Of a stretch of DNA of 64,000 bases, positions 1 to 45,779 are shown one piece after another (within the stretch, counting starts at the first letter, position 1; each line of letters starts with the position of its first letter). The notes beneath the pieces are model-generated. The model saw only the letters and a program-made list of their open reading frames with translations. It had not been told where the DNA came from and did no database searches. The DNA lies in contig NC_068558.1 of the NCBI RefSeq assembly GCF_022201045.2, positions 3,162,001 to 3,226,000 of the forward strand, read 5' to 3'. This DNA is from Citrus sinensis. Lineage: Eukaryota; Streptophyta; Magnoliopsida; Sapindales; Rutaceae. The position numbers were made by a program, and so were the translations under genes.

Positions 1-2106
1 CTCAATGTGGTCTATGTTCTCACAACACCAAAGCCTCAAGAACGTGAGAATGAGACATTAGCGGAAACCAGAGTGCGACATAAGTGGGAGCAAGATGACT
101 ACGTGTGTAAGGGACACATTTGCAATGCCATGTCTGATACTTTATTTGATCAATATCACAACAAACCTATATCAAAAGAGATATGGGACTCATTAGAGGC
201 TAAGTACATGATGGAAGATGCCACAAGTAAGAAATTCTTGGCTTCTAAATTTTTTAATTATAGAATGGTTGATAATAGACTTGTGGTTGAACAATATAAT
301 GAGATTTTGCATATTCTTGATCAATTCAACCAACATAACATGAAAATGGATGAGTCTATTATTGTCTCTTCAATTATTGATAAACTTCCTCCCTCTTGGA
401 AAGACTATAAGAAAAGTCTTAAACATAACAAAGAGGAAATCAGTCTGGATGGCTTAGGCCAAAGTCTTCGTATTGAAGAGGAACTCAAGCTTAATAGTTT
501 TGAGGATCAGACTACTACGACCTCTAAAATTAATGTTGTAGAAGAAGGGAAGGATTTTAAGCATTCTAATCACCCTAAGAATAATCAAAAGAGAAAGTTT
601 GATTCCAAAGAGAATCAAAACAATAAGAAGAAAAAGAAGGGTACATGCCACCATTGCGGAAAACCTGGCCATTTCAAAAGAGATTGTCGACTTCTGAAGA
701 AACAAAAGGAAGTTTCGAACACAAATTTTGTGGCCATGATATCTGAGATTAATGTTCTTGAAGATGATAATGCATGGTGGATAGATTCTGGTGCAACCAA
801 GCATGTATGCAAGGATCGTAGCCTTTTCAAATCTTATAAAGCAATGGATGATGGAAGTGTTCTTTACATGGGAAATTCCTCCACTGCAATAGTTAAAGGA
901 AAAGGCAATGTGCAACTAGAGTTTACTTCCGGAAAAGCTTTAACTCTTACTGATGTTTATCATGTTCCTGAAGTTAGAAAAAACCTTGTATCTGGTAGTC
1001 TTCTTAATAAGTTTGGCTTCAAACTTGTTTTTGAGTCAAACAAATTTATATTATCTAAGGGTGGTACCTTTGTTGGGAAAGGATACATGTATGAAGGAAT
1101 GTTTAAACTCAATATCAATAATATGAATGTTTCTTCTGCTTATATGGTTGATTCATTATCTTTGTGGCATAATCGTTTAGGACATGTGAATATTAGAAGA
1201 TTGCATGATATGACTAATTTAGAGTTAATTCCTAAGCATGAAAATGATATGCATGAAAAATGTAAAGTATGTGCACAGACTAAAATCACAAGATCTCCTT
1301 TTCCAAAAATTGAAAAAACATCTTCTTTATTGCATTTAATTCAAAGCGATGTGTGTGATATGCATAGTAATCCTTCTAAAGGTGGTAAAAAATATTTTGT
1401 AACATTTATTGATGATTTTTCAAAATATTGCTATGTGTATTTGTTACATTCTAAAGATCAAGTGTTAGAAAAATTTAAAACTTATAAAAATGAAGTTGAG
1501 AATTTTTATGACACTAAAATTAAATGCCTTAGAAGTGATAAAGGAGGTGAATATGCTTTTCCTGACTTTTGTGAATATGTTGGCATTATACATGAAACTA
1601 GCACTGCATATACTCCACAACAAAATGGCGTAGCTGAAAGGAAAAATAGGACATTAATAGAAATGGTTAATGCTATGCTTTTTAATGTTGGGCTTGGTAA
1701 AGGTTTTTGGGGTGAAGCTATTTTAACTGCATGTCATATCTTAAATAGAGTGCCTAATAAGAAAACAAAGGTGGCCCCATATGAATTATGGAAAAAGAGA
1801 AAGCCTAATCTTTCTTATCTAAGAGTTTGGGGTTGTCGAGCCATTGTAAGACTACCAGAACCTAAGATAAAGAAATTAGGAGAAAGGGGCATTGAATGCA
1901 TATTCTTGGGATATGCAGAGCATAGTAAAGCTTATAGGTTTCTTGTAACAGAACCTAATAGCTTTGTTGAGATCAATACTATAGTGGAATCTAGAGATGC
2001 AATATTCTATGAAAATAGATTTTCCACTATACCAAAAAGTATTGATTCTCAAGAGAATGATAAACAAATAGAAATTGGTCAAAAGCGTGATGCTAATAAT
2101 GAATAA
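1..2106 (+). pseudogene. copia gag-protease-integrase segment, ended by an in-frame stop
   Basis: Open from the window edge in the frame of base 1 (no start codon visible) to TAA at 2104-2106. Numbering residues from base 7: a UBN2/copia gag domain fills about residues 20-165; a CCHC zinc knuckle sits at Cys214-Cys227 after a Lys-rich stretch; the aspartic protease signature DSGA is at 260-263; the integrase HHCC zinc site uses His388, His393, Cys419 and Cys422; the integrase core carries Asp448, Asp511 and Glu544. The products would form the particle, cleave the polyprotein and insert cDNA. The D511-E544 gap holds 32 residues rather than the usual 35. The stop lies after integrase, in the linker before RT. 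The frame continues directly beyond it, so this is a nonsense change and not a frameshift. Confidence 0.93.
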
Positions 2107-3789
2107 AATCATTTGAGAAGAAGTAAAAGAATAAGGACTATAAAATCTTTTGGACCAGATTTTATAGTCTATTTAGTTGAAGGGACAAGAGACTCACAAT
2201 CAAAACAGACCATGATCACATCTACTATGGAGTCTGATCCCCTCACCTATGAAGAGACAATGAAGTCTCAAGATGCTGCTTTTTGGAAAGAGGCCATTAA
2301 TGATGAAATGGACTCTATTGTGGGTAATAAGACTTGGAAATTAGTTGATTTACCACCTGGCTCTAATCCTATAGGTTGTAAATGGATTTTCAAAAAGAAG
2401 AAGAAAGTTGATGGAACAATTGAAAGATTTAAAGCAAGACTAGTAGCAAAAGGCTTTACACAAAAAGAAGGCCTTGATTATTTTGATACATATGCACCTG
2501 TTGCAAGAATTGCTACTATTAGAGTCTTGATTGCTTTGGCTTCAATTTATCAATTTGAAATCCATCAAATGGATGTAAAAACAGCTTTCTTAAATGGAGA
2601 ATTAGATGAGGAAATTTACATGAAACAACCAGAAGGGTTTGTTATGCCAGGACAAGAACATAAAGTTTGTAAACTAGTCAAGTCTTTATATGGTCTTAAA
2701 CAAGCTCCAAAGCAGTGGCACGAAAAGTTTGACAAAGTGATTGTCTCAAATGGATTTAATATTCATGAATCTGATAAATGTGTCTATAGCAGATTCAATG
2801 GAAATAAAGGTGTGATTATTTGTTTATATGTAGATGACATGTTAATTTTTGGTACTGATAGTGAGAGCATTGAACTCACTAAATTATTATTGTCATCTAA
2901 TTTTGATATGAAAGACATGGGACTTGCTGATGTGATTTTGGGGATTAAAATTCTAAAAAATGATAATGGCATAGTATTGACCCAATCACATTATATTGAG
3001 AAAATTTTAAAGAAATTTAATTATTATGATTGTAAGTCTGTGTCAACACCTTTTGATTCAAACATAAGACTGTATCCTAACACTGGCAGATCAGTATCTC
3101 AATTAGAATATGCACGTATTATTGGATGTCTTATGTATGCGATGACTTGTACTAGGCCTGATATTGCTTTCGCTGTTGGAAAGCTCAGTAGATATACTAG
3201 TAATCCAAGCCAAGCACACTGGCAAGCAGTGTACAGAATTCTAAAATATTTAAAACATACAATGGATTATGGTATATACTACACTGGATATCCTTCAGTT
3301 TTGGAAGGATTTTCGGATGCTAGTTGGATTACTGATCGAGATGATCATACATCCACAAGTGGTTGGATTTTTAATCTTGGTGGAGGAGCTATTTCATGGG
3401 GCTCAAAGAAGCAAACTTGTATAGCAGACTCCACCATGGCTGCAGAATTTGTAGCTTTGGCTTCATGTTGCAAGGAAGCTGAATGGTTAAGGAATTTGCT
3501 TATAGAAATTCCTATTTGGCCTAAACCAATGCCTCCTGTATCTATTCACTGTGATAGTGAGGCAACTTTATCAAGAGCATATAGTCAAATCTATAATGGA
3601 AAGTCTAGGCACATTGGTCTAAGACATAGTTATGTAAGACAATTACTTACAGATGGAGTAATCACAATTGACTTTGTGAAATCATGCCAAAATTTGGCAG
3701 ACCCCTTAACTAAAGGCCTTGCAAGGGATATTGTATTTAAAACTTCTAAGGGGATGGGACTGAAGCCAGCATCATCTTATCACCAATGA
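2107..3789 (+). pseudogene. copia reverse transcriptase-RNase H segment
   Basis: Same frame as the preceding segment, separated only by the TAA codon; the stop is TGA at 3787-3789. The RVT_2 domain is complete: the [17 protein letters not shown] block, the SLYGLKQAP block and the YVDD catalytic box at 2827-2838. RNase H follows, with the FSDASW, MAAEF and HCDSEA acidic motifs and the C-terminal ADPLTKGL motif. It would copy element RNA to DNA and remove the RNA strand. It has no ATG of its own at its 5' edge, so expression would need readthrough of the stop. No other stop or frameshift is seen in this half. Confidence 0.93.
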
Positions 3790-18836: not shown

Positions 18837-20722
18837 TTAATGAAATCTAAAATGCCCCAAACCTGAGAGAGCGATAACTGTGAAAGTTTGGACTACTTGG
18901 AAGTTGGAAATCATCACTTCCAAAACTAAAATAATATTTGCAGTCCGTAGAATCGACAAATAAACCCAAAAAGTTAAAATTTTAATTAATTAAAAATAGA
19001 ATCGTGATGAGTGAATATATATAATTAACTTGATCATGTCGGTGTTGCAGTTGCAGTATAAAATATTCTTGGTATCGGTAATGTCTCTCTTACGTGTTAG
19101 CATTTGAATTGGGAGGCCGATAATATTACTTAAAACAAACCCATAAGATTCTTTTTTTTTTTTTTGTTGAAGAAAGTTGTTATATTATTACTTGCAAATT
19201 GTAAAACTTTAGTAAATTAATATTTTTGGGTAGCAAAAATTTTATTTATTTGGTGAATATTAATTGATTGATAAATTAATAAATACTTATTTACGAACAA
19301 ATTCCTTATTTATGGGAAAAAGTGATTATATTTATAGTATTACTTTAGTTTAGTGTTTATTATTGTTTCATTATTTTTATAAAGTGATAGTGGCATTGAA
19401 TAACTTCTTATTGTGAAATGACAATATCAACTAGAATTTCACATTACAAAAGAGTTAAACATGAGATTCAAGTCGAAATCAATCTCAAAATAAATAAATA
19501 AGCAACACTCCGATAATATTTTACAAAAGTTACACACGCAATTTAGTTTTGAATTAGATAATTGTTAATTTATACCGTAAGACCCCTCTTATATATAAAT
19601 ATAATTTTTTTTAAAATTATAATCTTATAAATTTATCAAATTATTAATTTATAATATTGACACGCAGTGAAGACCGACAAAAATTATTATTTAATTAAAA
19701 TTATTAATTTATCAATTTTTAACTTACCATGGTTTGTGGCCTTGTGGGTGTTATAATAATGTGAAAAAGTTGAAGCATATGTAATCGGAACGATATATCG
19801 AGTTGCATAAAGTAATAAAATTAGAAAAAATCTTCAAAAGTTTCCATTCTAGTTATTTTATAATATATGAATCACGGCACATATTATGTTAAAAGCCTAA
19901 AGGGGGCGGTTTATTAGAATAAAGTTGGCGTAACCAGCCCCGAAAGGGTAAATTGCTTTGTCCATGGCCTGATGGCCACAAGATAAGATACGATCCATGA
20001 GCTTAATTAATTTTCAAGTAATAATTAATGACATCTTACTTTTAATCAGGATGAGTTGACAAAATAATCAACTCAAGAGCCACTGACACTGAGTACGCCA
20101 ATATTATTCTAATTTCTGGATGAAAACACTGTGCGTCCGCATACCTAAAAAGGTTAGGTTAGCTTTTGGATTTGGTGATTCAAGCTTTTAAGATACCATG
20201 AAGCTTGATCTAGGTGCATAAAGATCTCCATAATTGCGTTAAGTCGAAGATTATTATCAATTGACCCAAATCTCTCGTCTTCCATTAATTGGATCATTTT
20301 CGTAGTATTACCCAAAATTTTAGAAATAAAAACAAAGACGAGAGAAATATTCATACTCACGCACATGTGTATTTGTGTAAAGGTAAAAGAAGATTTTCAC
20401 TTCTTATTGGTATGCATGCATGCATATCACCCTAAAGATGAAACTTCAAAACTGCGTCAAATTTGCTTCAAAATTTTGGGTATTTGTCACTTAAACCCCA
20501 TAAATTTTGTGATATTATCACTTAAATAACTCGTTTAATCTAACATAAATTTACTTTCCACAAATTTAACCAAATGTTTGATCCTTTCATCTCTTTAATA
20601 ATAACGATCTAGTATTATATGTTTGATTACTATAAATGAGAGCTTTTTAGTTTAATATTATTTTTATTAGTATTGAATTTTTAATGATACTCCAAATTTC
20701 ATTGGAGCTAGATCTCAATTAA
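18837..20722. other. AT-rich spacer between the two family A MITEs
   Basis: No gene supported. A T run lies at about 19151-19164. Sequence near 20480-20530 resembles common intergenic repeats of the 'CACTTAAACCCC' type. Nothing else recognised. Confidence 0.5.
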
Positions 20723-21592
20723 TGCTGTGTTTATTTGCTGGAGTGGGAGTGAGGAGTGTGGATTCCTCCCACTCCAGCGTTTACTTCTTTAAAATAGGAA
20801 GGGTGTGGGAATTCCACTCCGTGGGCCCCACTCATTTTTGGAGTGGGGAGTGGGAGTGAGAATCCACTCCCACCTCTCCCTTTTTTACCCTTTTATTTTT
20901 TTTAATTTAATAATTTATAATTAATAAAATAAAATAATAATATTATATTTAACTAAATAATAATATTATATTTAACTAAATAATAATATTATATTTAACT
21001 AAATAATAATTTGAATTAATTATAAGTTAAAATTATTTTAAAATAATATTATTATATTAATAGAGAATTAATAAATATAATATTATTATATTTATTTTAA
21101 AAATAATAGTACTATATTTATTTTATATTAATAATAATAATAAATAGTTTATTCTATGAAAATATTAATTTTGTACTAAATAATATTATATTATTATTTT
21201 ATATAATAATAAATTTAATATAACTATATTGAATAAAATAAAATAAGGTTTCATTTTATATTAAAATTAATAATTTATTGTTCATGATTAAGAATATTAA
21301 TAATTATAATAAATTTACAAATATAATAAAATAAATATTATTCATTAAATATATTTTTTATTAGTTTTGTAATTAAAAACTATAATTCTTTAAATAAGGA
21401 TAAAAATTGTAATTTAAAACTATTTACTAACAATCTAAGACAAAGTAAACACATAAATTAGATTCTGATATCTATTACATACTTCCATTCCAGTGTAAGT
21501 AAACAACCTACTCCCATTCCCACTCTACACTCCTAATCCTAGGATTCCCACTCCTCAAGATTTTCAATCCAATCCAAAAAGTAAACGCTAAC
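20723..21592. mobile_element. MITE family A, copy 2
   Basis: About 870 bp. It begins TGCTGTGTTTATTTGCTGGA and ends TCCAAAAAGTAAACGCTAAC, the same ends as copy 1. Shared internal landmarks include the GGAGTGGGGAGTGGGAGT block and the AATAGTACTATATTTATTT block. It lacks the 340-bp duplication of copy 1 but has its own 23-bp tandem triplication at about 20936-21005. TAA next to both ends is compatible with a 3-bp duplication, but boundaries are uncertain by a few bases. Confidence 0.8.
20936..21005. repeat. 23-bp tandem repeat, three copies
   Basis: The unit TATTATATTTAACTAAATAA plus 3 bases recurs at 20941, 20964 and 20987 with exact 23-bp spacing, inside MITE copy 2. Confidence 0.85.
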
Positions 21593-22270
21593 TAAATGAA
21601 AATAGGCCATCTAAGTCGTAATACTATAAACCTCAGGTGTGGTAACTGATAAATACCCAATATTTTCTCTGATTTTATATTTATTTGGGCAGTAATTTAG
21701 ACACGTCGCAGTATGGAAATAGTTGCTGAATTTTGGTTCTTTTCAGTCGCCTTTTCACTTGTTACAGCAGAAAAGCTTTCAGTTGCATCACCGTTATTGT
21801 CTCTCTCGTTTCACATCACGTCTCAAATTATTAGTCCCAAATAGCAGCTGAATCAAACTCAGAATTAAAAATTAAAAATTAAAAAAAAAAAAATCTACAC
21901 ACACAACAGATTAATTCATTAAAAGGGTATTTAATTCTTGATTTGGGTAGTAATTTCTAAAATTTTGAACATAATTAGGTATTGTTTAAATTTGAGGAGC
22001 CGTGGCTCTCTCAACCCACAACTAATATAAAATGAAAATACAATCTATCCAGCACCATATAAATTGTCAGATAATTTATTTATTTATTTTTTAAATCGCA
22101 CGTCGCGTACAAAACAAATACGATGAAATTTAATTTCATTATTAGTTTTTAGATATTAAAGATTGAGAAATTATTTATAATTAGTCCATTTATTAGTTTC
22201 GTGCTCATGTATGTCTTCTCAGCAACCGTTAGTGGTACTAATTCCACTGCTCTTTCAATCACATTGTTTG
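21593..22270. other. Upstream region of the BOR1-type gene
   Basis: AT-rich. TATAAA at 22058-22063 is an alternative promoter candidate. No separate gene is recognised. Confidence 0.4.
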
Positions 22271-22280
22271 TATTTTATAA
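22271..22280 (+). promoter_or_regulatory. Candidate TATA box for the BOR1-type gene
   Basis: TATTTTATAA is followed by a C/T-rich stretch with no ATG from 22283 to 22425, which looks like a plant leader. Transcription would start near 22300. This is inference; TATAAA at 22058 is the main alternative. Confidence 0.4.
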
Positions 22281-22425
22281 TGCTGAGTCACCACACACTG
22301 CCTCATTCTCATTCACGCCAAAATCCTTCCATTTGCAGAGTTTGTTTTGCGAATCTCTCTGTTCAATAGCTCTTCTTGCTTCATCTTAATCCTCTTACAC
22401 TCTCTGTTATTTCTTGTTCTTGTTC

Positions 22426-22431
22426 ATGTAA
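22426..22431 (+). promoter_or_regulatory. AUG-UAA minimum ORF 1 in the BOR1 leader
   Basis: ATGTAA inside GTTCATGTAACTG, at the end of a C/T-rich leader-like stretch. It is the first ATG downstream of the TATA candidate at 22271. AUG directly followed by a stop stalls ribosomes in a boron-dependent way in Arabidopsis NIP5;1, and upstream ORFs control BOR1 translation there. Whether this base is in the mature mRNA is not shown. Confidence 0.5.
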
Positions 22432-22510
22432 CTGTAATCTTTACACAGTTGCTTCAACTTCTTGTTTCTCAAGTTGTCTTTATATTGCTCAAAATCGTTT
22501 CTTTTGAATA

Positions 22511-22516
22511 ATGTAA
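22511..22516 (+). promoter_or_regulatory. AUG-UAA minimum ORF 2 in the BOR1 leader
   Basis: ATGTAA inside GAATAATGTAATC. It is the next ATG after minimum ORF 1, with no other ATG between. It could be leader or the start of a leader intron. Confidence 0.4.
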
Positions 22517-22767
22517 TCTTGATTCAACCATTTCTTTCGAACTTGTTTGATCCAAACTTTTTTATAATCTCAATCATGGGTTCCCGTTAATTTTTGAGTT
22601 TCTGTGGTTCTTTCGTCGAGACTTTTCCTGATGCCCATTTGCTTTAAATCCGTTTAAACCATCCAAAATTCCATATTTGATAATGGGGTTTCGTTAATTT
22701 TGCTGTTCTTGTGCCCAAACTTTATCAAGTTCCAGTCTTTGATTGATACTTTGTTATATTTTAAACT

Positions 22768-22787
22768 ATGTAAGTTGTACCATGTAA
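22768..22787 (+). promoter_or_regulatory. AUG-UAA minimum ORFs 3 and 4
   Basis: Two ATGTAA elements, at 22768-22773 and 22782-22787, lie 14 bp apart. They may sit in a leader intron; no splice site is fixed in this region. Confidence 0.3.
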
Positions 22788-23085
22788 ATTATCTTCTCTT
22801 GCATTCATTTTTCGTTTTTAATGTACTTTTTGGCGGGATTCGGTTAGTGATGGATCTTGAAGGTGCTAAAGTCAACCGTTAATTGAATTCTTAGACTTAG
22901 CTCATGGAGAGAATCTGTTCATTTCGTTAACTTAATATTTTTGTTTGTGTTCATTATGGATTTTGTTCGCTAATATCTTTGATTCCTAGTCATTTATGGA
23001 TTCGAAGTAGTTTGATTGATAACTAACTGATTCTTTTGTTCTTTATTGAAAATATACCACTATTATTCTTTTTAGATTTCTCGAA

Positions 23086-23091
23086 ATGTAA
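23086..23091 (+). promoter_or_regulatory. AUG-UAA minimum ORF 5
   Basis: ATGTAA about 310 bp before the BOR1 start codon, and immediately followed by another ATG at 23092. Leader or intron status is unknown. Confidence 0.25.
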
Positions 23092-23398
23092 ATGTTTTTA
23101 ATTGGATAATTTTACTAAATTACACATCAAAATATGATGACTTCACATTTTTCTTTTGATTATGTTGTAATGAACATCGTGTTCTTGTCTTTCTGCCCAT
23201 AGTTTCTTGTATTTGTCTTCGCTTATGGAAGTTTAGTAGCTGGTTTGGCCTCTCGAGTCACTTTAATCTGTATTTGAATCTTGTGTGTTGGTGGATTTCA
23301 TCTCAATTTGTTGGTTGTTCAAACAAAAAGCAGAAAAAAGGGGGGAAAAAAAAGAAAAACCCTCAAATTTGGTTTGTTTATTGAAATTTTGAGTTTTC

Positions 23399-26300
23399 AT
23401 GGAAGAAACATTTGTTCCCTTCCGTGGAATTAAGAATGATCTCAATGGAAGACTTAAGTGCTACAAGCAAGATTGGACTGGTGGTTTCCGAGCTGGATTC
23501 AGGTATGTGGCTGTCTCATTTGATTATCTGTCATTGCATAATGTTGTCTTTGATTATCATCATACAATAATGATCTGGATTGCTAGCTTAACATTGCTTT
23601 TTATTTGTTCACAGTATATAATGATTGCAAATACTAGGCTTTTTTGAGGTTATTTGTTTTGAAGTTACTAGGATGTTTTGTGGTTATTTGTTTTGAACTT
23701 ATCATCACTTTTTTTTTTTGTCACCTAGGATCCTTGCTCCAACAACATATATATTCTTTGCTTCTGCTATTCCAGTTATATCCTTCGGGGAGCAGCTTGA
23801 AAGAAATACAAGTGAGGCCATATACGCTGTCAATGTCCTCTTGTTATAGGCCCTCCCAATGGTCATCTACTGAGATGTGCTTTCTTTGATTGTATGTCAG
23901 ATGGAGCTTTGACTGCTGTGCAAACTCTTGCATCAACGGCACTTTGTGGTATCATCCATTCAATTGTTGGAGGACAGCCCCTTCTCATACTCGGTGTGGC
24001 TGAGCCAACTGTGTTGATGTATACATTTATGTTCAACTTTGCAAAAGATCGGAAAGATTTAGGCGAGAAACTATTCTTAGCTTGGACAGGATGGTAACAG
24101 CACTCTGCATCACTAAATTGTTACATTCGGGTTGATTTTGTGGTGATCCCAAAATGTTTTCTGCATTCTGTTGGGTTTTTAGGGTCTGTGCCTGGACGGC
24201 CTTATTGCTTTTCTTGCTGTCCATTTTGGGTGCATGCTCCATTATTAATCGGTTTACTCGCATTGCTGGTGAATTGTTTGGTCTGCTGATTGCAATGCTT
24301 TTCATGCAGCAGGCCATACGGGTAAGGAGATTTGGATTGTTTCTCAAAATGTTTTATATGCAATTTCTTGGCAGTCTTGAATTCTTGCTTGATTTTTGAA
24401 ACTGGTGTTTAAGAAGTACCATATTTTTTCTTTAAAACAATCTTGCATGAATTTGCTAGCATTTTCTCAGTAATTCCCTCAACTATGAACTTAATCCTAT
24501 AGGGAGTTGTGGAGGAGTTTGGCATACCAGAGAGAGAAAATCCTAATCAGATGTCATTGCAACCTTCTTGGCGTTTTGGCAATGGAATGTTTGCATTGGT
24601 TCTTTCCTTTGGCCTTCTTTATACTGGACTAAGGAGCCGAAAAGCTAGATCCTGGCGTTATGGATCAGGTAAAATGTTACTCTGACACTTACATGGCCTA
24701 TAAGTGATGAATTCTACATGAGTCAGTTAAGTAATCACTTCCTTATAATCATGCCATTCTCAGTGAGGTTAGCTTATTTCATTATTTAAACAAGCCCACA
24801 CGGTATGCTGCGTGAGCTGTATATCTCATAAACATTACTGATGAATGTGATTTCAAATCGGTAGGTTCACTACGAGGATTTATAGCAGATTACGGAGTCC
24901 CACTAATGGTGCTTGTATGGACTGCTGTATCATACATTCCTGTAAATAATGTTCCAAGAGGGATTCCCAGGCGACTTTTCAGTCCAAATCCATGGTCTCC
25001 TGGTGCATATTCAAATTGGACCATTGTCAAGGTGAATCCTGCTAGAAAAGATTCCACAGTATACAAATTGATGTTTACTTTGGTATCTACTTGAAGCATA
25101 GCTGAGATTTTGATTGAAGCATTTAGTATCTGGCAAGAAACTGATGCCTTTTAAGTTGTGCAGGAAATGTTGGATGTTCCTCCTTTATATATAGTTGGAG
25201 CATTTATTCCAGCAACTATGATTGCTGTTCTTTACTACTTTGATCACAGTGTAGCATCTCAACTTGCCCAACAGAAGGAGTTCAATCTGAAGAAACCACC
25301 TTCATATCACTATGACCTTCTTCTTCTGGGATTCTTGGTGAGCCATTGTCCTAACAAGCCATTAACTTTTGAAATTAATCTGGTGAAAATCAAATTAGAG
25401 TTGGACCAAAGTCCTTGTCTTCAATTTTATCAAATAACTTTATTATTTTGGTTATGCTGAATATTTATCAGACAATATTATGCGGTCTTATTGGCATTCC
25501 TCCATCCAATGGTGTAATTCCACAATCCCCAATGCATACAAAAAGCTTGGCTACCCTGAAACATCAGGTAATTGTCTTGGTTTTTCAAATCGCAAATCTG
25601 GTTTGTATACCAGCATAGTTCTATCAACTTTTTATTCTCAACTTTCTTGATGTATAGAACTCAGCTTGCCATTTATTACTTTTTGAATTGGAATATAATA
25701 CTCACATTGATGTTGCAATTACTGGTGCACAAACAGGAATGAGGTCCAACATTTTGACAAATTCTTACAATGGTGCAGCGTAGAGATGTGTAACTTAATG
25801 AGCCCAACATTTTTTTATTCAGATTTCTTATATCATTCGATAAGTTGTTATAGACTTTCAAAACTATATCTGAACCTACTACTCTCATGGCAATTTACTA
25901 CCTGATCCAAGGGCTTTAACAGTTGGCCTATGGTGCTTATACATATTCAGTCGCCTTGCTTATATTGCTGCCTTCTGCATAACAAGATTGCAGCTTTGTC
26001 CCATATTTCCGTTTCCATTTGAGTATTCTCTTCCTGTTGCAACAAATTCTTGATTGTGTATTAGATATTAAAGTTAGTGTCATCTGTGCTTCTTGATCAT
26101 GTTTTAGATATTAAAGTTAGTGTCATCTGAGTTTCTACTGCTTTGAAAACTAAATTGCTGCTACGGAATCTTGCTTTTCTTTGTAACAGCTTTTGCGGAA
26201 TAAGCTTGTATCAACAGCACGGAAAAGCTTACAGAGAAATTCAAATCTGAGTCAATTGTACAGGAACATGCAAGAGGCATACAATGAAATGCAGACGCCC

Positions 26301-27727
26301 CTTGTCTATCAAATGCCTCCTGCTCTGGTAGATTTATTTGCATTTTACCTTTTGATTGATACCATAATTGCTGTCATTCCCTTTTGCCCTAATTTCTACT
26401 TTAAACAGGGACTGAAAGAGATGAAAGAATCCACAATCGAACTGGCCTCCAGTTCTGGCTATATTGATGCACCTGTTGATGAGACTGTTTTTGATGTGGA
26501 TAAGGATATTGATGATCTTTTACCTGTTGAAGTCAAGGAACAACGTCTCAGCAATCTGCTGCAGGCATTGATGGTTGGCGGTTGTGTTGCTGCTATGCCT
26601 CTCCTGAAGAAGATCCCTACTTCTGTTCTTTGGGGCTACTTTGCCTTCATGGCCATTGAGAACTTGCCTGGAAATCAATTTTGGGAGAGGATATTATTGC
26701 TTTTCACTGCTCCAAGCCGCAGATACAAGTAATTACCTTCTATAGTTTTCCCCAATCAGTGCCTTAAAAGAAATTGAAAAAATGGAATTCAACTAAATCA
26801 TATGTTCAACTTGTGAAACCATATTTCTAATTTGTTATCGTTCTGATTGTTAGTTATCATTAGTATTCTTATAACAATGAGATATCTAATTTCCCTTTTC
26901 TGAACCTCAGGGTTTTGGAGGAGAATCATGCAACATTCATTGAGACTGTTCCCTTCAAATCAATTGCTGCCTTTACTTTGTTCCAGACAGTCTACCTGCT
27001 TCTTTGCTTTGGCATAACATGGATTCCAATAGCTGGTGTCCTTTTCCCACTGTTGATCATGCTTCTTGTCCCTGTGCGGCAATATTTGCTCCCAAAGTTT
27101 TTCAAAGCCGTTCATCTTCAAGATTTGGATGCTGCAGAATATGAGGAAGCTCCTGCCATTTCTTACAATATGACATTTGAAGTGAGTTGTCTAAGCTTTT
27201 TCTTTGTTTCAGCTAAGCCTAATTTCGCAAAAGCATCTGATTGGAGCATGGAATTAATATTGGTTTACCTAAGATTTACTTGATAAAATTTATTAAATAG
27301 AAAGAGAGGGAAAGGTGGTGGGGGGGGGGGGGGGGATAGACTTTTGATCTCTGGTGATAGTGTGACGCATATATTGGCTAAGCTTAGCCTTGGAAGTTTC
27401 ATTCTAATCCATGATGCTTTTATTGATCGACAGGAAAGAGCCATCGACATTGATGGAGGGGAAATTCTAGATGAAATGATCACACGAAGCCGTGGTGAGA
27501 TTCGCCACTCACAGAGTCCTAAAATTACTAGTTCAACTCCAACTTCACTTGAGGATAAAAGATCTCCTCACAGTCCATCGATGCAAAGGGCATATAGTCC
27601 CCGTGTTAGAGAACTGAGGGTGGAAAGAAGCCCCAGCTTGAGCGGAAAAGGGTTAGAAGTAAAGAAAATTCCCAGTCCCGGGCCATCTAACCTTGGACAA
27701 AGCAGTAACGGTTCATCTCCATGCTAA
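23399..27727 (+). CDS. BOR1: Boron (borate) exporter, BOR1 type, anion-exchanger fold
   Basis: Twelve coding exons: 23399-23502, 23729-23811, 23901-24093, 24183-24321, 24503-24668, 24865-25031, 25164-25337, 25472-25567, 26190-26327, 26409-26728, 26911-27181 and 27434-27727; 714 residues (Arabidopsis BOR1 is about 704). It is an SLC4-like borate efflux carrier of the plasma membrane that loads boron into xylem. Family signatures: the start METFVP-type leader with [43 protein letters not shown], and the [27 protein letters not shown] substrate region (given here only as landmarks, split across exons 7-8). The loop and C-terminal tail hold the tyrosine and lysine region used for endocytic turnover in Arabidopsis, around [19 protein letters not shown]. 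The last exon adds a Ser-Pro-rich tail. Intron 8 has a 43-bp tandem duplication and intron 11 a 16-nt G run. BOR2 or another clade I member is the alternative. Confidence 0.95.
26061..26130. repeat. 43-bp tandem duplication in BOR1 intron 8
   Basis: TTAGATATTAAAGTTAGTGT recurs at 26061 and 26104, with CATCTG following both copies. Confidence 0.8.
27320..27335. repeat. 16-nt poly-G run in BOR1 intron 11
   Basis: An uninterrupted G run in the sense strand of the intron, preceded by GGTG. Confidence 0.9.
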
Positions 27728-28964
27728 AGTCTAGAATGCATAATCCACATGAGTTTATTTGTCACTGGTGCTTGAGAGGTCTTGTACTAAGTTCATGTAA
27801 CTATGTGTTATATGTGCTTCTCTTCCTATTTCTAACCATCGGATGTCTTTCAGTGATTACTGTTATATTTCCTAAATATGGGCAGGTAGAGATTTATGTT
27901 AATAAAAAGCATGCTTTATTATATCACCAAATGATATTTCATTATGTGTGATTTATAAGGCACAGTGAAGATTATCCGTGAGACTAATTTCTTGTTGCCG
28001 CAATTTGAATTTATATGGACACGACTGGGTCAAGTCATATTCATGAATTAGTGAAGCCGATGAATGACTGACTGGAGCTCACATAAGCCATTTTAACTGC
28101 AAGGGACAAGGAAAAGAGACACCCGATCCACCATCTAAATAGGCTCGTCCACTTTCTTATGTCAGCATTCCTATTGGGATACACATTTTTTCCCCTGGAA
28201 AAAGAGTCCTTTCAAAGTAAAAGCTGTTTACTTGGTTAGTGGTGCTGATGAGTAGTTCATGTCTATGAGATTCCCAATAACGATTCAAAAGATGGTAAAA
28301 TATTTTTCTCCAAACATCTGATTTCTGGCTTAGCAATTCTCTTTGCTGATCCTTTGCTTTTCCAAGCACCACTAGCACTATGATTTCAGCGCTTGTCTGC
28401 ACTTCTGAATGAATTACGTAAAGAGATACTAGAAAAGGGTGATTCAGATAGATATAAAGAGAGATTTGCTTAGGCACTAGGTGGACAGACAATTAATGCC
28501 AAATATCACTAGTGATAAGCATGCTATACAACCCACTATCTCTTCTGTACAACAAGGAGTACACAAGGGAGTGAGGGACCCAAATGGTGCTGTTAGGACC
28601 AAAATGATGCTGTCACTTGTCACTCTGATGCTTTGCTTAACGATTGAATGACACTTTAAAAAGTGACACAGCAGATTCTTTGATTTGCACTAATGTTTGT
28701 GGATCAACTGATGGGCACTTAGAATGACGGTAAGTTCCGCATTTTCTTTTCTGTATCAGCATAAGTTCTTCTTTGGTCTTGAACCCATCGAAATTTTGTA
28801 GCCTACAGGCATTTGGCCCAGAGCAAATTTACAGCTCAGTGTCAGTAGCCAGGACAATTGGACATTACAAATGAGTGTCATGGGTTTTCTTTTGAGTTCC
28901 TTAAGATTTTGGTAGGTTGGACATGAGCTAAGCGTTTTATCAAACTATTGAGAACTTAATTAGT

Positions 28965-29100
28965 TTGTGCTAAGCGAGTGGTCAGGCTGCTGCCCTCCAA
29001 TTTGGATGGCAGCAGTTCGAACCTCCACAAATATATTGTGAGAGTATTTTCTTTCTTAATTAAATTTGAATGAAGGTATTATTTTTTTTTATCCAAGTGT
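28965..29100 (+). mobile_element. Candidate tRNA-derived SINE
   Basis: GCTAAGCGAGTGG resembles a pol III A box. It is followed about 40 bp later by GCAGTTCGAACCTCC, a good B box. Between them TGCTGCC..GGCAGCA forms a stem like a tRNA anticodon arm. A T-rich 3' end follows (about 29080-29090). Ends and target-site duplication are unclear. Confidence 0.5.
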
Positions 29101-29116
29101 GATGAGTAGACATCTC

Positions 29117-29394
29117 TTGAATATTTGTGAGGGTTAAAATATGAATAGCGCTCCATTAGTATTGATGTAAGTTGATCCCAATAATAGTCTGATTTGTAAG
29201 CTCATTAGTATTGATGTAAGTTGGTTCCAGTAATAGTCTGATTTGTAAATATCAGTTGAATATTTATGAGGGTTAAAATATGGATAGCGCTCCATTAGTA
29301 TTGATGTAAGTTGATCCCAATAATAGTCTGATTTGTAAGCTCATTAGTATTGATGTAAATTGGTCCCAGTAATAATCTGATTTGTAAATATCAG
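29117..29394. repeat. 139-bp tandem repeat with internal half-repeat
   Basis: Two units start at 29117 and 29256 (TTGAATATTTGTGAGGG and TTGAATATTTATGAGGG), 139 bp apart and over 90% alike by eye. Each unit itself contains two related segments beginning CATTAGTATTGATGTAA about 49 bp apart, so the duplication is nested. Confidence 0.85.
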
Positions 29395-30003
29395 TTTAGT
29401 CTTATATAATATGAGTTATAATTTAAGTAATAATCTCATGTAATAAAAAAAAAATAGTTTGTACAGTTACCATTTTTCTTCATCCTCAATTAAATAAATT
29501 ACTTTCATCCTCAATGAAATAAATTACAAGCCAAATGGAGAATGAAACTGAGTTTTATAACATAGGAGCTACTTGAAGTGACCAAAATGAGATGAGGATG
29601 GCAAAGAAAAGATGAATTGAATTTTCGGCAAGAAATCATTATTATTTATCAATATTTTCTTGAAATGACTCAGAAATTAAATATTTGACTGAAGCAGAAC
29701 AATCATTTATGCTGACATTTTAATGTGTGATATAGGTGCATTATCCATAAATAGGAAAAAAATGAAAAAAAAAAAGAGGGAAAAAAATGCGCGTTTGTCC
29801 AGGTTGGTGGAGGGGCAGAGGACCGGACTTGTGGGTAGAGGTGGGTGGGTGTTCGATCGGTATCTTTCAGCCGGGGGGAGATAAAAAGGTGAAAAAGAAA
29901 ATGATTATCATAAATAAATAACATTAAACAACAAGAAATAAATAAATAAAAACCGCGCCAGTTCTGTTGTCTAGATCTGATCTGCGCTCTTAAGAAAACA
30001 GAA

Positions 30004-33069: not shown

Positions 33070-35046
33070 AAAGGCTTTGACTTCTATACCTAACTTTTAA
33101 ATATACTCATATTTTGAAGAAAGTTTTGGACTGGGGATTAATTTTGCCACATAAATGGTGATAATAATGATTAATTCTGTGGTTGTTCTTTACCCCTGGG
33201 GGTTGATAAAAAGGTTTTTAAGGTTTTTTTTTTTTTTTGGTGGGTCACCTGAGTTCAAACCGCAAGTAGGTAGAGAGCTAAAATATTAATTTGAGGTTTC
33301 CCTAAAAACTTTGCGGCTGTTCTTGTTCATAAGGCTTATTGGAGAGTAGTAGTGAGTAGTAGTCCCCTTGTACGCAGGGGATTGCAGTCTTTCTTCCACT
33401 ATTAATTAAAGGTTAAATTATTGATAATATATCAGATATTCATAACTAGAGGAAGAATGTTTATGTTCCACTCGCATTTCGTAAGAAAGAATTGACTTAT
33501 AAATATTAATATTGTGGGGCTTGAACCTGTCCTCACATCCAACTATTTTTGTTTCATTCTTAAAAAGTAAAGAAAAAATATTTTTGTTTTGCTCCTGATG
33601 GTCTAACCAGTGATTTTTTAAAAATTTACTTTAATATAATTTAGAATATATCCAGCTCTTTACTTAGAAAAAGAAAAAGAAAATAAAAAATAAAAAAGAC
33701 AGCAATATGTGCTTTGTTGGTTTGTTGGTGTTCATGTATTGCCCTTTATCCTTAAATGAGGAATTCTTTTCTAATTATATAAAAGTAAATAGAATCATAG
33801 AAAGTATTTAACCAGCGTGGTAGTGGACTTCACAAACACCTTAACATTATGGACTGATTGATTGGCCTCTATGTTTTGATGTCCAAAACTTTCAGATTAT
33901 CTTCAAAATTAAGGGTTGGAAAATCAAAGAAAATTGTCATGGGCATTTACAATTTCAAAATTGGAAAAGGGATTTGAGACTTGTAGATGTAAGCCATAAG
34001 TTGCACTAAATCCTTTGTAAACATCGTTTCTTACTTAACCTATTACATTAAAGCTTTTTATTTTTTTAATTGTGATTAAAGAACACCAACTGCAAAATTA
34101 AGGCTAATAACAAATGCTTAGCGTTATCACTACTAATCCGTACTAAAAGTAGTCTTTAATGTAGATTGATTTTTCTTTATTTAACATGACCATAATTGTG
34201 TTTCTTAGTCTTAAGACCAAATTTACCATTAGATTTATTTTTTAACGACTCGCTGAATTTTGATATTAATAAGAAAGAGTAAATTAACTTATTTAAGGTT
34301 TTGTTTGAAAACCATTTCCGTTACAAATAAGTATTACTCATTTAATTTAGATAATTTGTAATTATCTAAAGTGAACCTTAGCCAAAGCCATTTTTTTCAA
34401 TTCATATTGACGGATTTACCCTCGTTTATTTCCTTCTCCTGATGCCACATAAAAAATGTACCATCAAATGAGTTAAATTGACTTGATTATGTTTTGAAAG
34501 TTTTTTTTTTTTTTTAAAGTCCAATGTATACTTCTAATGGCCCCATCCATGATATTCTTACTATTTATGTACGAATAAATATAAAGTAAAAATCCCATGA
34601 ATGAATGAGTTTATATACCGAAGACAATAAGATTTTTAGTGATGCGAATTAAGGTTAATCAACAAAAATTTGTCTGCCCAAGAGGAAATTCTTCACTTAT
34701 TCAGTTATTATAAACAAAAGTTCAATAATATACAGAAATAGAACCTAAAAGGAAAAAGACAAGGAGGGAGGGTTAAGATAGACATTTGATTCATGTGCTA
34801 TGTATTTTTTTAAATATTAAATTAAATAAAAAGTGAAAAAAAGAGCCATAAATATGTTAATTAAGAGAGGCTTGATGGTCAAGATAGCTAAGTAATGCTA
34901 AACGATCCTGACCATGGGATTAATCATAATGAACGATCATGATTAACTTTGATAATAAATGCCTTTGCCATATGCTCACTTATTAAGGAACACAAAGGTG
35001 ACAGTTCCAAAACGCTCAAACATCAAACGTTTTGCTGCATGTTGTC
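33070..35046. other. Spacer between GDSL and MYB genes
   Basis: Starts with GDSL 3' UTR. A T run lies at about 33224-33238. Minus-strand sequence at about 33520-33620 reads CACTGGTTAGACC and GGACAGGTTCAAGCCCC, which resemble pol III A and B boxes but are about 75 bp apart, too far for a normal tRNA head. Otherwise AT-rich with nothing recognised. Confidence 0.5.
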
Positions 35047-35068
35047 ATGGAGCTGGACACAAAGCTAA
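35039..35068 (+). promoter_or_regulatory. Overlapping upstream ORF at the MYB start
   Basis: An out-of-frame ATG lies 8 bases before the assigned MYB start and opens a 9-codon ORF that ends at TAA within the MYB coding sequence. Its context (GCTGCATGT) is weaker than that of the main start (TTGTCATGG, with G at +4). Leaky scanning would be needed to make the MYB protein. Confidence 0.45.
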
Positions 35069-36608
35069 GAGACCAAACACATCATCATGCGAGCCAACAA
35101 CAACCAATATTCTTGTCTGAAAATTACATGAAACCTGAGCTACCTTTTGAAGTCCCTTCATCGAAGGGTACTCATATAACTAATAATCTTCAGGATTTTG
35201 ATCGTCACCACCATGATCTTGATGACGATGACGGTCGTCATCATCTGTTCGTTAATCTCAACGGATCCTCCTCAACAAACCCTTTTGCTGTTCACACTCC
35301 ATGCTTTGAATCTCTTGATGCTTTCCCATACAATTACTCGTCATCATTAAACTTTGACTTTTATGAGTGCAAGCCATTTGCTGATCACAATTACAGTAGC
35401 GGCAACGGTCAAGTCATGGACAATTTCCAAAGTGGAGGATACCTAAATCATCATCAGCAACAGCAAGTGAATCCAGTCGATATTTTGGGATCCGATCATC
35501 GCAGCCACATGCAATTAGATTTTCAAGAAATGAAGCCTGTAAATTTTCTTGTTTCCGATGAAGTTTCATGTGTAAGTGCTGGCAATGGTTACTATAAGAA
35601 AGCTGGCATGGATAAGAACAATAATAGAGCATATCATTCGGTAAGAAAGACGATGAAAATTGGTAAGAAGTCCAATGTAGTGAAGGGACAATGGACTACT
35701 GAAGAAGACAGGTAATCTAATTTTGAAATTTTTGCATGGTTAATCTTTACATTTAGCTTCGTAATTTTTCAATGAAAAGTTGATAATTAATGTGTATATG
35801 CATAGGCTATTGATTCGGTTGGTCGATCAATTTGGGATAAGAAAATGGTCTCATATTGCTCAGATGTTGCCTGGAAGAATAGGCAAGCAGTGCAGAGAGA
35901 GATGGCATAACCATTTAAGGCCTGATATCAAGGTAAATGAACATTTTAGACCCTCGAATATATGTATTATTTACAATGCATGTGCAATTTATTAATTTGT
36001 ATTTTTTTTTCAAAATATTGCAGAAGGATATTTGGAGTGAGGAGGAAGATAAGGCGCTTATAGAGGCGCATGCAGAGATAGGAAACAAATGGGCAGAAAT
36101 TGCAAAGAGGTTGCCTGGAAGAACTGAAAATTCAATCAAGAATCATTGGAATGCAACCAAGAGAAGGCAATTCTCGAAGCGAAAATGTCGTTCAAAATAC
36201 CCCAGAGCCTCTCTTTTACAAGACTATATCAAGAGCTTGAACTTAGATGCAGCGGGTTCTTCAAAACACCAGAGAAAAAACTCCTCTAACATTAACGCTA
36301 ATAACAAAAGCAAAGCAGCAACCAAGAGTAGCCCTCCAGCTGCCGCAGAGCAAGACTTTTGCCGTAGTGATCATTTGGTTCCGGATTTTGATTTTAATGA
36401 GGTCCCGGATTTTGATTTCGATGACAAGTTGTTTGATGAGAATTGTAGCATTGATTCTCTAATTGAAGAAATGACTTGTGCTCCTGTTGTTGATCATCAG
36501 AAAAGCTTGGACATGAAGGTGCCACCATTGGATGTGCCTCCAGTGATGGAGTTTGAAGTGAAGAAGGAGCTGGATTTAGTGGAAATGATCTCTGAAGCCA
36601 ATCTTTGA
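35047..36608 (+). CDS. R2R3-MYB transcription factor, MYB98/MYB64/MYB119 clade
   Basis: Three exons: 35047-35711, 35806-35932 and 36024-36608; 458 residues. The DNA-binding R2 repeat (about 213-263: KGQWTTEEDR...LPGRIGKQCRERWHNHL) and R3 repeat (about 264-312: DIWSEEEDK...RTENSIKNHWNATKRR) sit mid-protein after a long His/Asp/Asn-rich N-terminal region. That placement is itself typical of this clade. KRKCRSKYPRASLLQDYIKS right after R3 is its second hallmark. The C-terminal part has acidic repeats (PDFDFNE / PDFDFDD) and a DLVEMISEA end, likely activation sequence. Arabidopsis relatives act in female gametophyte (MYB98 in synergids, MYB64/119 in cellularisation) and in embryo/endosperm control (MYB115/118), so a nuclear, reproductive role is inferred. 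I cannot choose among the paralogues from memory. Both introns fall inside the MYB repeats. Confidence 0.92.
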
Positions 36609-43323: not shown

Positions 43324-45779
43324 TCAGGACAAGTATACTTCAACACTTGCCGTCCTCATTGCCTTGCAGACGGGACAAACGCCTATAAGCCCTTCACAGT
43401 CTTTACACAAACACAAGTGTCTGCATGGCAAAAGCAATATAGAGACTTCCTGGATGTTACACGCTCTACAAATCATCTGCATTTTCATGGGACTTGAATT
43501 TCCAGAACCATCTACAACACTCAGATAATTCAGATTAGTGCGAGACGCAGCATCGTCTACCTCACTGTCTCCACAACCCTCCTTCACATGCAAGGAACCT
43601 TGTGCCACGGCCTGCTTAAGATTGTTCTTCAATGCATTGACTACAGACTCGTTATATTTTGCTTTGTAGTGCCAAGATTGAACTTCCATGCTAACCTGCT
43701 TTATTTTTTCCACTAGTTCCTTGTTCTTGCAGTTCATGACCTCTATTTCCATCTCCTTTCCATGTAGCCTCCTTCCAACTTCTTTTTCTATGGCAGTGAG
43801 AAAAGAATATGTGTGTCTTTGCTTCATTTCCCTTACACCCTTTATCATGTTTCCTTCCTGTATCAAACAAACCAAGTAAGAACCAGCTGCAGAAGCTATC
43901 AGCCTATCACTCAGTCTACATGGAACCCTGTAGACTTAATTAAATGCAATGTATTATATCCCATTCCATTATATTTGCAAAACGTTAAATTTCTCATGGC
44001 CATGCTTTTTTCATTATTAGGCTACTGTCATTTAGATGAAGAAAACAGCAGACACATTCTGCCTTTGCCAGTAAAAAGATAACAACAACACACTTCATTA
44101 TAATTTTATGGTACTTTAACAGTAGGAAAAAAAATGATTCTGAGAGGATATTTAGCTTATAAACCTAAAAAGTGATGACAAAATGACGAGAGCTGTTAAG
44201 AAACTAATGAGCATGTGAGGAGAATTGGAGAAAGAAAGTTGATGGGAACATAGTGAACGACAAGAGAATTGTTGAGAACGCCATGGAAAAGGGATGAGAA
44301 ATGATAAAAAAAGAAAAAAGAACAAGAAATGTCAAGAAAGTGATGTAACTCGATGAAAATGTGTAATGAGAATGTGATGAGAAATGTTGAGTCTCTAAAA
44401 CCAATAAGATTTTTGCATCGAAGACATTGACGGTTGTCTCTCTAAAATCAACAAGCTAAGTGACTACAGTTTGATAAGCCGACACTTTAGCATCTCAAGT
44501 TGGACTGATTGCAGAGGTCAATGATCGGTCATGACATAATATATTAACTACTTTAGTTACAGAGGTTCAAGGGATTGAAGAAACAGAAGCATCAAAGTTA
44601 TCCTTTTGTCATATGGAATCAGATTATCACCTGAATTCTCATGTACTGATCAAATTCTTCCTTCTGACGGTCAATCTCCAATTTAAGATTATCACCAAGG
44701 GACAGTATATGAGGAATTGCACCAGAAATATTTTCACACGCCGAAGTAACAGAAGAATTGTGTTCATCATCCTCATACGAAAGTCTAAGACCAGTTGATA
44801 CAGGGTTCGGATTCATAATGTTACAATGCTGACCACCTTCATCTTGATGCACTTTATCATTCAAAGATATATGGTGCTTTTCCTGTCTGGAAATAGATTC
44901 AACCTCCCTGCTTCTTTTAACTGGCCGCTCCACTGTAGTTGCATGCTGATTCCCCGTGAATTTTGAGGGACCAACGCTGCATCCAACTGGAACAAAGACA
45001 GATTGCAACATCCCTGAACGAAATTAGATAAACCATAGACCACTTTGTAGAAGGAAAAAAGCACACTACAATAAATAATATATAAAGTGAAAGAAACAAG
45101 ATTTGAAGGCAAGAATACAAACTGAAATTTGCAGCCAGAAAAGCATGACAACCCATGGCAAACATAACAAACACAAGGAGAATCACTAGATGATAAGATA
45201 GCATGCCCCAGCAGGGAAAAAATGGAGAATGAAAGCAGAAAAGTGAATGAGATTTCCTAAATAAATTCATCATCAATAAAAAATAATTACCCAGATTCAG
45301 TTGGTTCATTGACTGCTGCAGCCATTTTAGGTTCACGGCATGCTATGCAAAATTCAACTGATAATGCATTCACAATGCCGCATCCCTTACTTCTACTGAC
45401 ATGCCACAAAGAAAATGAAGCTAATGGTCCTAGTGATGAGGCAAGAAATTTTTAAACAATAAACAATAAAAAAGTATAAGCATATGTTGTTTAAGAATAA
45501 TCAAAATTAACCAGACTCCTAAAAGCGATGTCATCCAGAGTGGTCACTAAATGAAGAGGCTTCCTAGAAACAAAAACACGCACCCAATATAAAATGCCCG
45601 CAATTACCACCACTGACTTTCTAATTACAAAATTTATGATCGCCAAATTGCATTCAGCAATAAATATACTCACCATCTCCAAATAACTGCAGCTGCGGCA
45701 ATGCATTTGAATTGAATTGGAATTGATGATCTGCGAGATAACCAGGAAGCAAGACATTGTTGTTTTCACCTCCGAACAT
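43324..45779 (-). CDS. BOI-related RING-type E3 ubiquitin ligase
   Basis: Three coding exons: 45779-45674, 44986-44631 and 43857-43324; 331 residues. The C-terminal RING finger (CRAC...LLPCRHLCLCKDC...GVCPVC) and the conserved segment before it (WHYKAKYNESVVNALKNNLKQ) define the BOI/BRG family. In Arabidopsis these proteins ubiquitinate BOS1 and repress gibberellin and flowering outputs with DELLA proteins, in the nucleus. The N-terminus MFGGENNNVLLPGYL matches the subgroup with MFGG starts. A coiled-coil-prone Glu/Lys-rich stretch precedes the WRD-like region. The PVKRSREVE motif in exon 2 is a nuclear-localisation candidate. Intron 2 contains a GA-rich, strand-asymmetric stretch. The leader probably contains an intron, since minus-strand sequence to about 46480 looks leader-like; that is not resolved. 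The exact paralogue is not assigned. Confidence 0.92.
44170..44400. repeat. Purine-rich asymmetric tract in the RING-gene intron
   Basis: On the plus strand the tract is dominated by A and G with recurring GATGAGAA / GAGAATG-type words and almost no C. It lies inside intron 2 (43858-44630). Confidence 0.6.

Follow-up and report, generated by a model that had tools for sequence, protein, structure and literature searches.

A cluster of AUG-stop elements upstream of a BOR1-type borate exporter gene in Citrus sinensis

The BOR1 locus

The window, which is the whole stretch of 64,000 nucleotides of Citrus sinensis DNA that was analysed, carries on its forward strand a gene that the original prediction had named a BOR1-type borate exporter (Table 1). 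This identification is borne out, as the 12-exon coding sequence is intact, the exon chain gives the protein exactly with all introns GT-AG, and the protein carries Pfam PF00955, has 8teg "Boron transporter 1" as its best PDB match (1230.6 bits) and matches "Boron transporter 1 [Citrus sinensis]" at 100% identity; a boron transporter from Citrus macrophylla is 99% identical. Protein alignment also places a lysine in the orange protein at the position of K590 of AtBOR1, which is described as a ubiquitination site in PMC8136889, and therefore this other form of high-boron control could operate in orange BOR1 too. The Citrus BOR1 isoforms differ at the C-terminus, with forms of 756-759 amino acids that have a shorter last intron near a run of G at ~27315 (matched by eye) and a form of 652 amino acids whose final residues match, again by eye, the DNA near 28435-28480 (region 27182-28480).

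Elsewhere in the window there are the frames of a Copia-type retrotransposon at 7-3789, encoding gag, integrase and reverse transcriptase with one break near 2107, and three neighbouring genes that encode a MYB factor (35032-36608), a RING-finger protein (43324-43875, minus strand) and a PX plus Rubicon-homology protein (59986-61074, minus strand).

Table 1. Features of the BOR1 gene and the region upstream of it, in window positions
Feature	Position	Strand	Remarks
TATA candidate TATTTTATAAT	22271..22281	+	from sequence; counterpart in paralog C3b is TATATAAAT
CCTCATTCTC, likely transcription start region	22301..22310	+	10-mer common to BOR1 and C3b
AUG-stop element 1	22426..22431	+	ATGTAA; +125 from CCTCATTCTC element; first upstream AUG
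AUG-stop element 2	22511..22516	+	ATGTAA; +210 from CCTCATTCTC element; second upstream AUG
AUG-stop element 3	22768..22773	+	ATGTAA; overlaps donor-like TAT/GTAAGT, cut after 22769
AUG-stop element 4	22782..22787	+	ATGTAA; donor-like as well (CAT/GTAAAT)
AUG-stop element 5	23086..23091	+	ATGTAA; followed at once by ATG at 23092, another short upstream ORF
Weak leader intron candidate	22843..23075	+	TCG/GTTAGT ... TTTTTAG/A; branch-like CTAAC at 23023
BOR1 coding sequence	23399..27727	+	12 exons, 714 aa

The ATGTAA cluster

Five copies of ATGTAA, in which an AUG is followed directly by a stop codon, lie upstream of BOR1 on the forward strand, all of them at the positions claimed for them in the original prediction. 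This cluster of AUG-stops before BOR1 is a real feature, with five copies in 22426-23091 set against a mean of 0.30 in dinucleotide-preserving shuffles, none of 5000 of which reached at least five. The rate in the genome, taken from 18 sampled stretches of 10 kb, is 0.357 per 666 strand-bases, and none of the 36 stretch-strands in this sample has more than three ATGTAA within about 666 bp. The 0.4-0.6 copies per 670 bp that had been expected are slightly high in this light.

When the whole window is corrected for, with 400 shuffles in 1-kb blocks, at least five ATGTAA per 666 bp are found on the forward strand in 11 shuffles (2.75%) and on either strand in 23 (5.75%), and the count alone is therefore borderline. 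Tiles of 666 bp with at least four ATGTAA number 0 of 3060 in the 18 sampled genome stretches and 8 of 1142 in the window, where three belong to the BOR1 leader and five to a tandem repeat near 29.1 kb. This repeat runs from 29117 to 29396, with units of 139 and 49 bp, and holds four members of a second run of five ATGTAA (29165-29443), the fifth being just past its end; the second cluster is chance-like and illustrates how repeats can mimic what is found in the BOR1 leader.

There are 19 ATGs in 22300-23398, the five ATGTAA and 14 others that the original prediction had left out, and the 5 of 19 compare with a base rate for AUG-stops of 0.062 (436 of 7037 ATGs in the 18 sampled stretches), which is similar within the window (139 of 2541, or 0.055). 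The binomial P for the BOR1 leader is 0.005, although this value and that for the paralog C3b below may be too small because leaders may tolerate AUG-stops as the least harmful kind of upstream ORF (uORF). Just upstream, in 21300-22299, none of seven ATGs is an AUG-stop, and in what is most probably the opening part of the leader (22300-22769) they make up two of five ATGs, which is a modest excess (P 0.034). The order of the ATGs is also as originally described, the next two after the TATA candidate being elements 1 and 2, if one sets aside an ATG at 22280 that overlaps the TATA itself.

Likely transcription start and the BOR paralogs

The paralog comparison covers the Citrus sinensis genome only, in which we grouped 59 matches into six BOR genes. 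The closest to BOR1 by first exon are C3b (C3:46370286) at 84% and C1a (C1:24483132, minus strand) at 78%. In both BOR1 and C3b the 10-mer CCTCATTCTC lies behind a TATA sequence, at a distance from the first T of TATAA of 25 nt in BOR1 and 21 nt in C3b, these offsets having been counted by eye. Any common 10-mer between two stretches of 101 nt from the two genes is found in 2.7% of 3000 simulations (P 0.027), and chance is made less likely still because the match stands behind the TATA in both genes. A start of BOR1 transcription at about 22301-22312 is therefore likely, from which it follows that elements 1 and 2 would be the first two upstream AUGs; they are, as anticipated, the first two ATGs past the start region that C3b shares, and 17 further upstream ATGs, three of them ATGTAA, come before the main ATG of BOR1.

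A stretch rich in C begins at about 22220-22400, which is a composition that a leader would show. Transcript-like contigs of citrus BOR1 reach 3636 nt against a coding sequence of 2145 nt, so that the longest would have 1.2-1.5 kb of UTR, and these lengths were rejected as proof of a long 5' leader given that one named Citrus isoform terminates in a distant 3' exon. The RNA fold of 22305-22769 has a z of -1.07, with 14 of 100 shuffles folding equally well, a scan of 20000-29000 against Rfam gave no matches, and a search across the genome for copies of the BOR1 leader found none except its own locus.

The best support for the reading of these elements as AUG-stops that matter comes from C3b, in whose leader (L028) there would be four ATGs behind the TATA, the first three being AUG-stops: ATGTAG, ATGTAG and ATGTAA (binomial P 0.0009). 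These are at +146, +197 and +339 from CCTCATTCTC, and upstream of the C3b start region none of 40 ATGs is an AUG-stop. When the leaders of the three BOR1-like paralogs are aligned, the coding start alone aligns at E below 1e-4; since the leaders of BOR1 and C3b do not align, their AUG-stops are not merely a copied stretch. With C3b repeating the feature, a single chance reading for all the observations was rejected, and the cluster is probably meaningful, a view that the paralog strengthens.

Over the 1100 nt that precede the main ATG, AUG-stops make up 5 of 19 ATGs in BOR1, 3 of 20 in C3b and 0 of 15 in C1a, and in the other genes 1 of 22 (C7a), 2 of 15 (C7b) and 1 of 31 (the most distant BOR gene), which sum to 4 of 68. 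The counts in C1a and C7b mean that AUG-stops are not a general trait of BOR1-like genes and are also found outside them. The two in C7b, one of the more distant BOR genes, are both ATGTAA and lie at 1054 and 1145 of L031, 550 and 641 nt before the ATG.

Possible splicing of the leader

A leader intron in BOR1 was sought by site scores among 1109 pairs of splice sites, and no pair stands out. The scoring used dicot site models, which rank the true pair first in 5 of the 11 BOR1 introns and no lower than second in 10; with the same models 10 of these genuine introns score 9.2-17.3 and one 6.1. The top-ranked of the 1109 leader pairs is the weak candidate in Table 1, which scores 8.5 and would, if used, keep all five elements. 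Other pairs have their donor at element 3 or 4 (6.9 and 7.3) or at element 1 (6.7). A softmax over the pairs, which is rough as it uses these models and has no "unspliced" option, keeps element 1 in ~83-85% and element 2 in ~68-79% of the weight.

Elements 1, 3, 4 and 5 all rank among the top eight donor-like sites in 22301-23395. Element 3 has a perfect GTAAGT, and its sequence ATGTAAGT also contains what a 5' splice site has on its intron side; splicing there would destroy the AUG of this element. From about 22673 on, the base composition moves closer to that of the BOR1 introns. From the site scores and this shift elements 1 and 2 would be the safe ones in the RNA, while elements 3-5 may be intronic. 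Among the paralogs, leader intron pairs in C1a score up to 13.6, and the best candidate in C3b (1749-1844, score 9.2) would remove the third of its AUG-stops.

Comparison with NIP5;1

The orange orthologue of NIP5;1 (L033, reverse strand, main ATG at 1851) served as a positive control. It has five ATGs behind its TATA, two of which are ATGTAA, and both of these are preceded by an identical TATAAAAGCCT that covers bases -18 to -8 and ends 7 nt before the ATG. Within this leader (L033 reverse strand, 1542-1749) an identical TTTATAAAAGCCT precedes each ATGTAA. The motif TATAAAAGCCT followed after 4-10 nt by ATGTAA occurs six times genome-wide, two of these being in NIP5;1, so where an AUG-stop is known, it can readily be spotted together with its upstream motif. 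There are also three identical copies of the 23-mer TATAAAAGCCTTTAAATATGTAA (G000:C2:13881760, C9:13094619 and C9:26972822), which are perhaps a repeat family.

The original prediction had suggested that the cluster could work as the NIP5;1 switch in denser form. This is not supported, as TATAAAAGCCT is absent before all five elements of BOR1, and likewise before the three of C3b, the best ungapped match being 5-6 of 11 positions; a match of at least 6 of 11 is reached by 77% of 7005 sampled ATGs. An AUG-stop switch coupled to decay in the manner of NIP5;1 was therefore rejected for BOR1. In the orthologue of NIP6;1 (L034 reverse strand, 1263) the later of the two leader ATGs belongs to an ATGTAG.

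A possible boron brake on BOR1

The primary paper on the 5'UTR-dependent repression of AtBOR1 is reportedly that of Aibara et al. 2018. PMC8136889 and PMC10755862 describe translation of AtBOR1 as repressed at high boron in a manner that depends on the 5'UTR, in agreement with what the original prediction had stated, and in PMC12666852 the AtBOR1 mRNA is largely stable at high boron while its translation is suppressed. For NIP5;1 the same source describes a conserved region 12-19 nt upstream that boosts mRNA degradation and not stalling, and we would equate TATAAAAGCCT with this decay-enhancing region, a correspondence drawn from its description rather than from its letters. The mechanism set out in PMC11915504 is that boron stabilises eRF1 on the ribosome at AUGUAA, reinitiation drops and the mRNA is cleaved. 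NGAL1/ABS2 is also reported to be under AUG-stop regulation (PMC12666852). In the literature on citrus, boron and uORFs, as represented by titles, the starts of abstracts and passages, no AUG-stops are reported in citrus BOR1.

As in NIP5;1 of Arabidopsis, with its conserved leader AUGUAA, a boron transport gene here would carry in its leader an AUG with UAA directly behind it, of which orange NIP5;1 has two. The two cases differ in that the elements of orange NIP5;1 stand behind TATAAAAGCCT whereas those of BOR1 and C3b do not, and in that BOR1 is an exporter with up to five elements and NIP5;1 a channel. With AtBOR1 orange BOR1 has in common the gene family and the expected outcome, less translation at high boron through the 5'UTR; in orange BOR1 the first upstream AUGs would be AUG-stops. 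NGAL1/ABS2, by its published description, is similar in that a boron-responsive gene carries an AUG-stop in its leader, and different in being a transcription factor.

On the evidence of the DNA, the cluster is filed as what may be a variant of AUG-stop control and not a decay switch of the NIP5;1 type, and a built-in boron brake seems plausible. The region upstream of BOR1 would be a transcribed 5' leader with minimum ORFs as its first upstream AUGs. Scanning ribosomes would begin translation at element 1 or 2 and come upon the stop codon while the P site still holds the initiator tRNA. When boron is low, most ribosomes would move on and reinitiate downstream, and exporter would be produced; when it is high, boric acid would keep the terminating ribosome on the AUG-stop, as by the stabilised eRF1 in NIP5;1, and with reinitiation falling less BOR1 would be made. 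As the upstream motif of NIP5;1 is missing, this brake would be expected to reduce translation with no strong decay of the mRNA, as is described for AtBOR1. A stall without a decay element at AUG-stops of the BOR1 type would combine what is described in PMC11915504 and PMC12666852. We infer the start site, the presence of the elements in the mature mRNA, initiation at the AUG-stops, the boron dependence and the mechanism. Overall we would give a boron-dependent translational brake on BOR1, acting via leader AUG-stops and without the NIP5;1-type decay signal, not quite an even chance; points against it are the borderline count across the window, the modest excess in 22300-22769, the absence of AUG-stops from C1a and their presence in C7b, the missing NIP5;1 motif, the up to 14 other uORFs and the C3b intron candidate that would take out an AUG-stop.

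It is unlikely, if by no means far-fetched, that the leader is an ordinary repressive one, in which AUG-stops and other short uORFs lower BOR1 translation constitutively without any boron sensing by the AUG-stops, these being common as the least harmful uORFs. An unspliced leader with so many other uORFs would repress without any boron sensing, and the majority of ATGs in 22300-23398 that are not AUG-stops, the lack of the NIP5;1 motif and the two ATGTAA among the upstream ATGs of C7b all fit with this. However, the leader of C3b has hardly any uORF other than its AUG-stops, which means that there is no general accumulation of uORFs. Against it too, in the 500 nt upstream of 16 long ORFs AUG-stops are 7 of 152 ATGs, with at least two in 1 of the 16, although this is a rough control as these ORFs, from the sampled stretches and the window, include transposon and internal-exon ORFs.

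Rather unlikely as well is an account by splicing and composition, in which the T-rich stretch is mostly a leader intron, the elements there, above all 3-5, merely resemble splice sites of the GTAA type or arose by chance and would not get as far as the cytoplasm, and elements 1 and 2 are due to chance. Four of the five elements being among the best donor-like sites, the perfect GTAAGT of element 3, the intron-like composition from about 22673 and the well-scored leader intron of C1a are in keeping with this, but the best leader pair scores below 10 of the 11 genuine BOR1 introns, elements 1 and 2 are kept in most of the admittedly rough softmax weight, and the three AUG-stops of C3b would require a second coincidence. 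It would seem very improbable that transcription starts downstream of 22516, making elements 1 and 2 promoter DNA. The TATA candidate of BOR1 is by eye weaker than that of C3b, yet the CCTCATTCTC behind the TATA in both paralogs and the leader-like C-rich stretch argue against such a start, as does the UTR left in the longest contigs, though the far 3' exon blurs how this is split between the 5' and 3' ends. Returning to the boron brake, an extended version of it, to which we attach very little weight, is that the leader is a splice-tunable array of AUG-stops, in which elements 1 and 2 would form a basal brake without decay and regulated splicing or intron retention around element 3, with its double role as a 5' splice site, would add or remove elements 3-5, so setting the boron dose at which translation of BOR1 is shut off.

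Implications for boron transport in citrus

Excess boron is a subject of research in citrus, a crop plant. BOR1 and C3b provide a natural comparison, both having leaders led by AUG-stops, with many other uORFs in BOR1 and hardly any in C3b. If the boron brake proposed for BOR1 is true, boron sensing by AUG-stops would extend beyond the uptake channel NIP5;1 to borate exporters, which would keep the stall and omit the decay signal, and this would give a reason at the level of sequence why at high boron the NIP5;1 mRNA is destroyed whereas that of AtBOR1 is stable and less translated.
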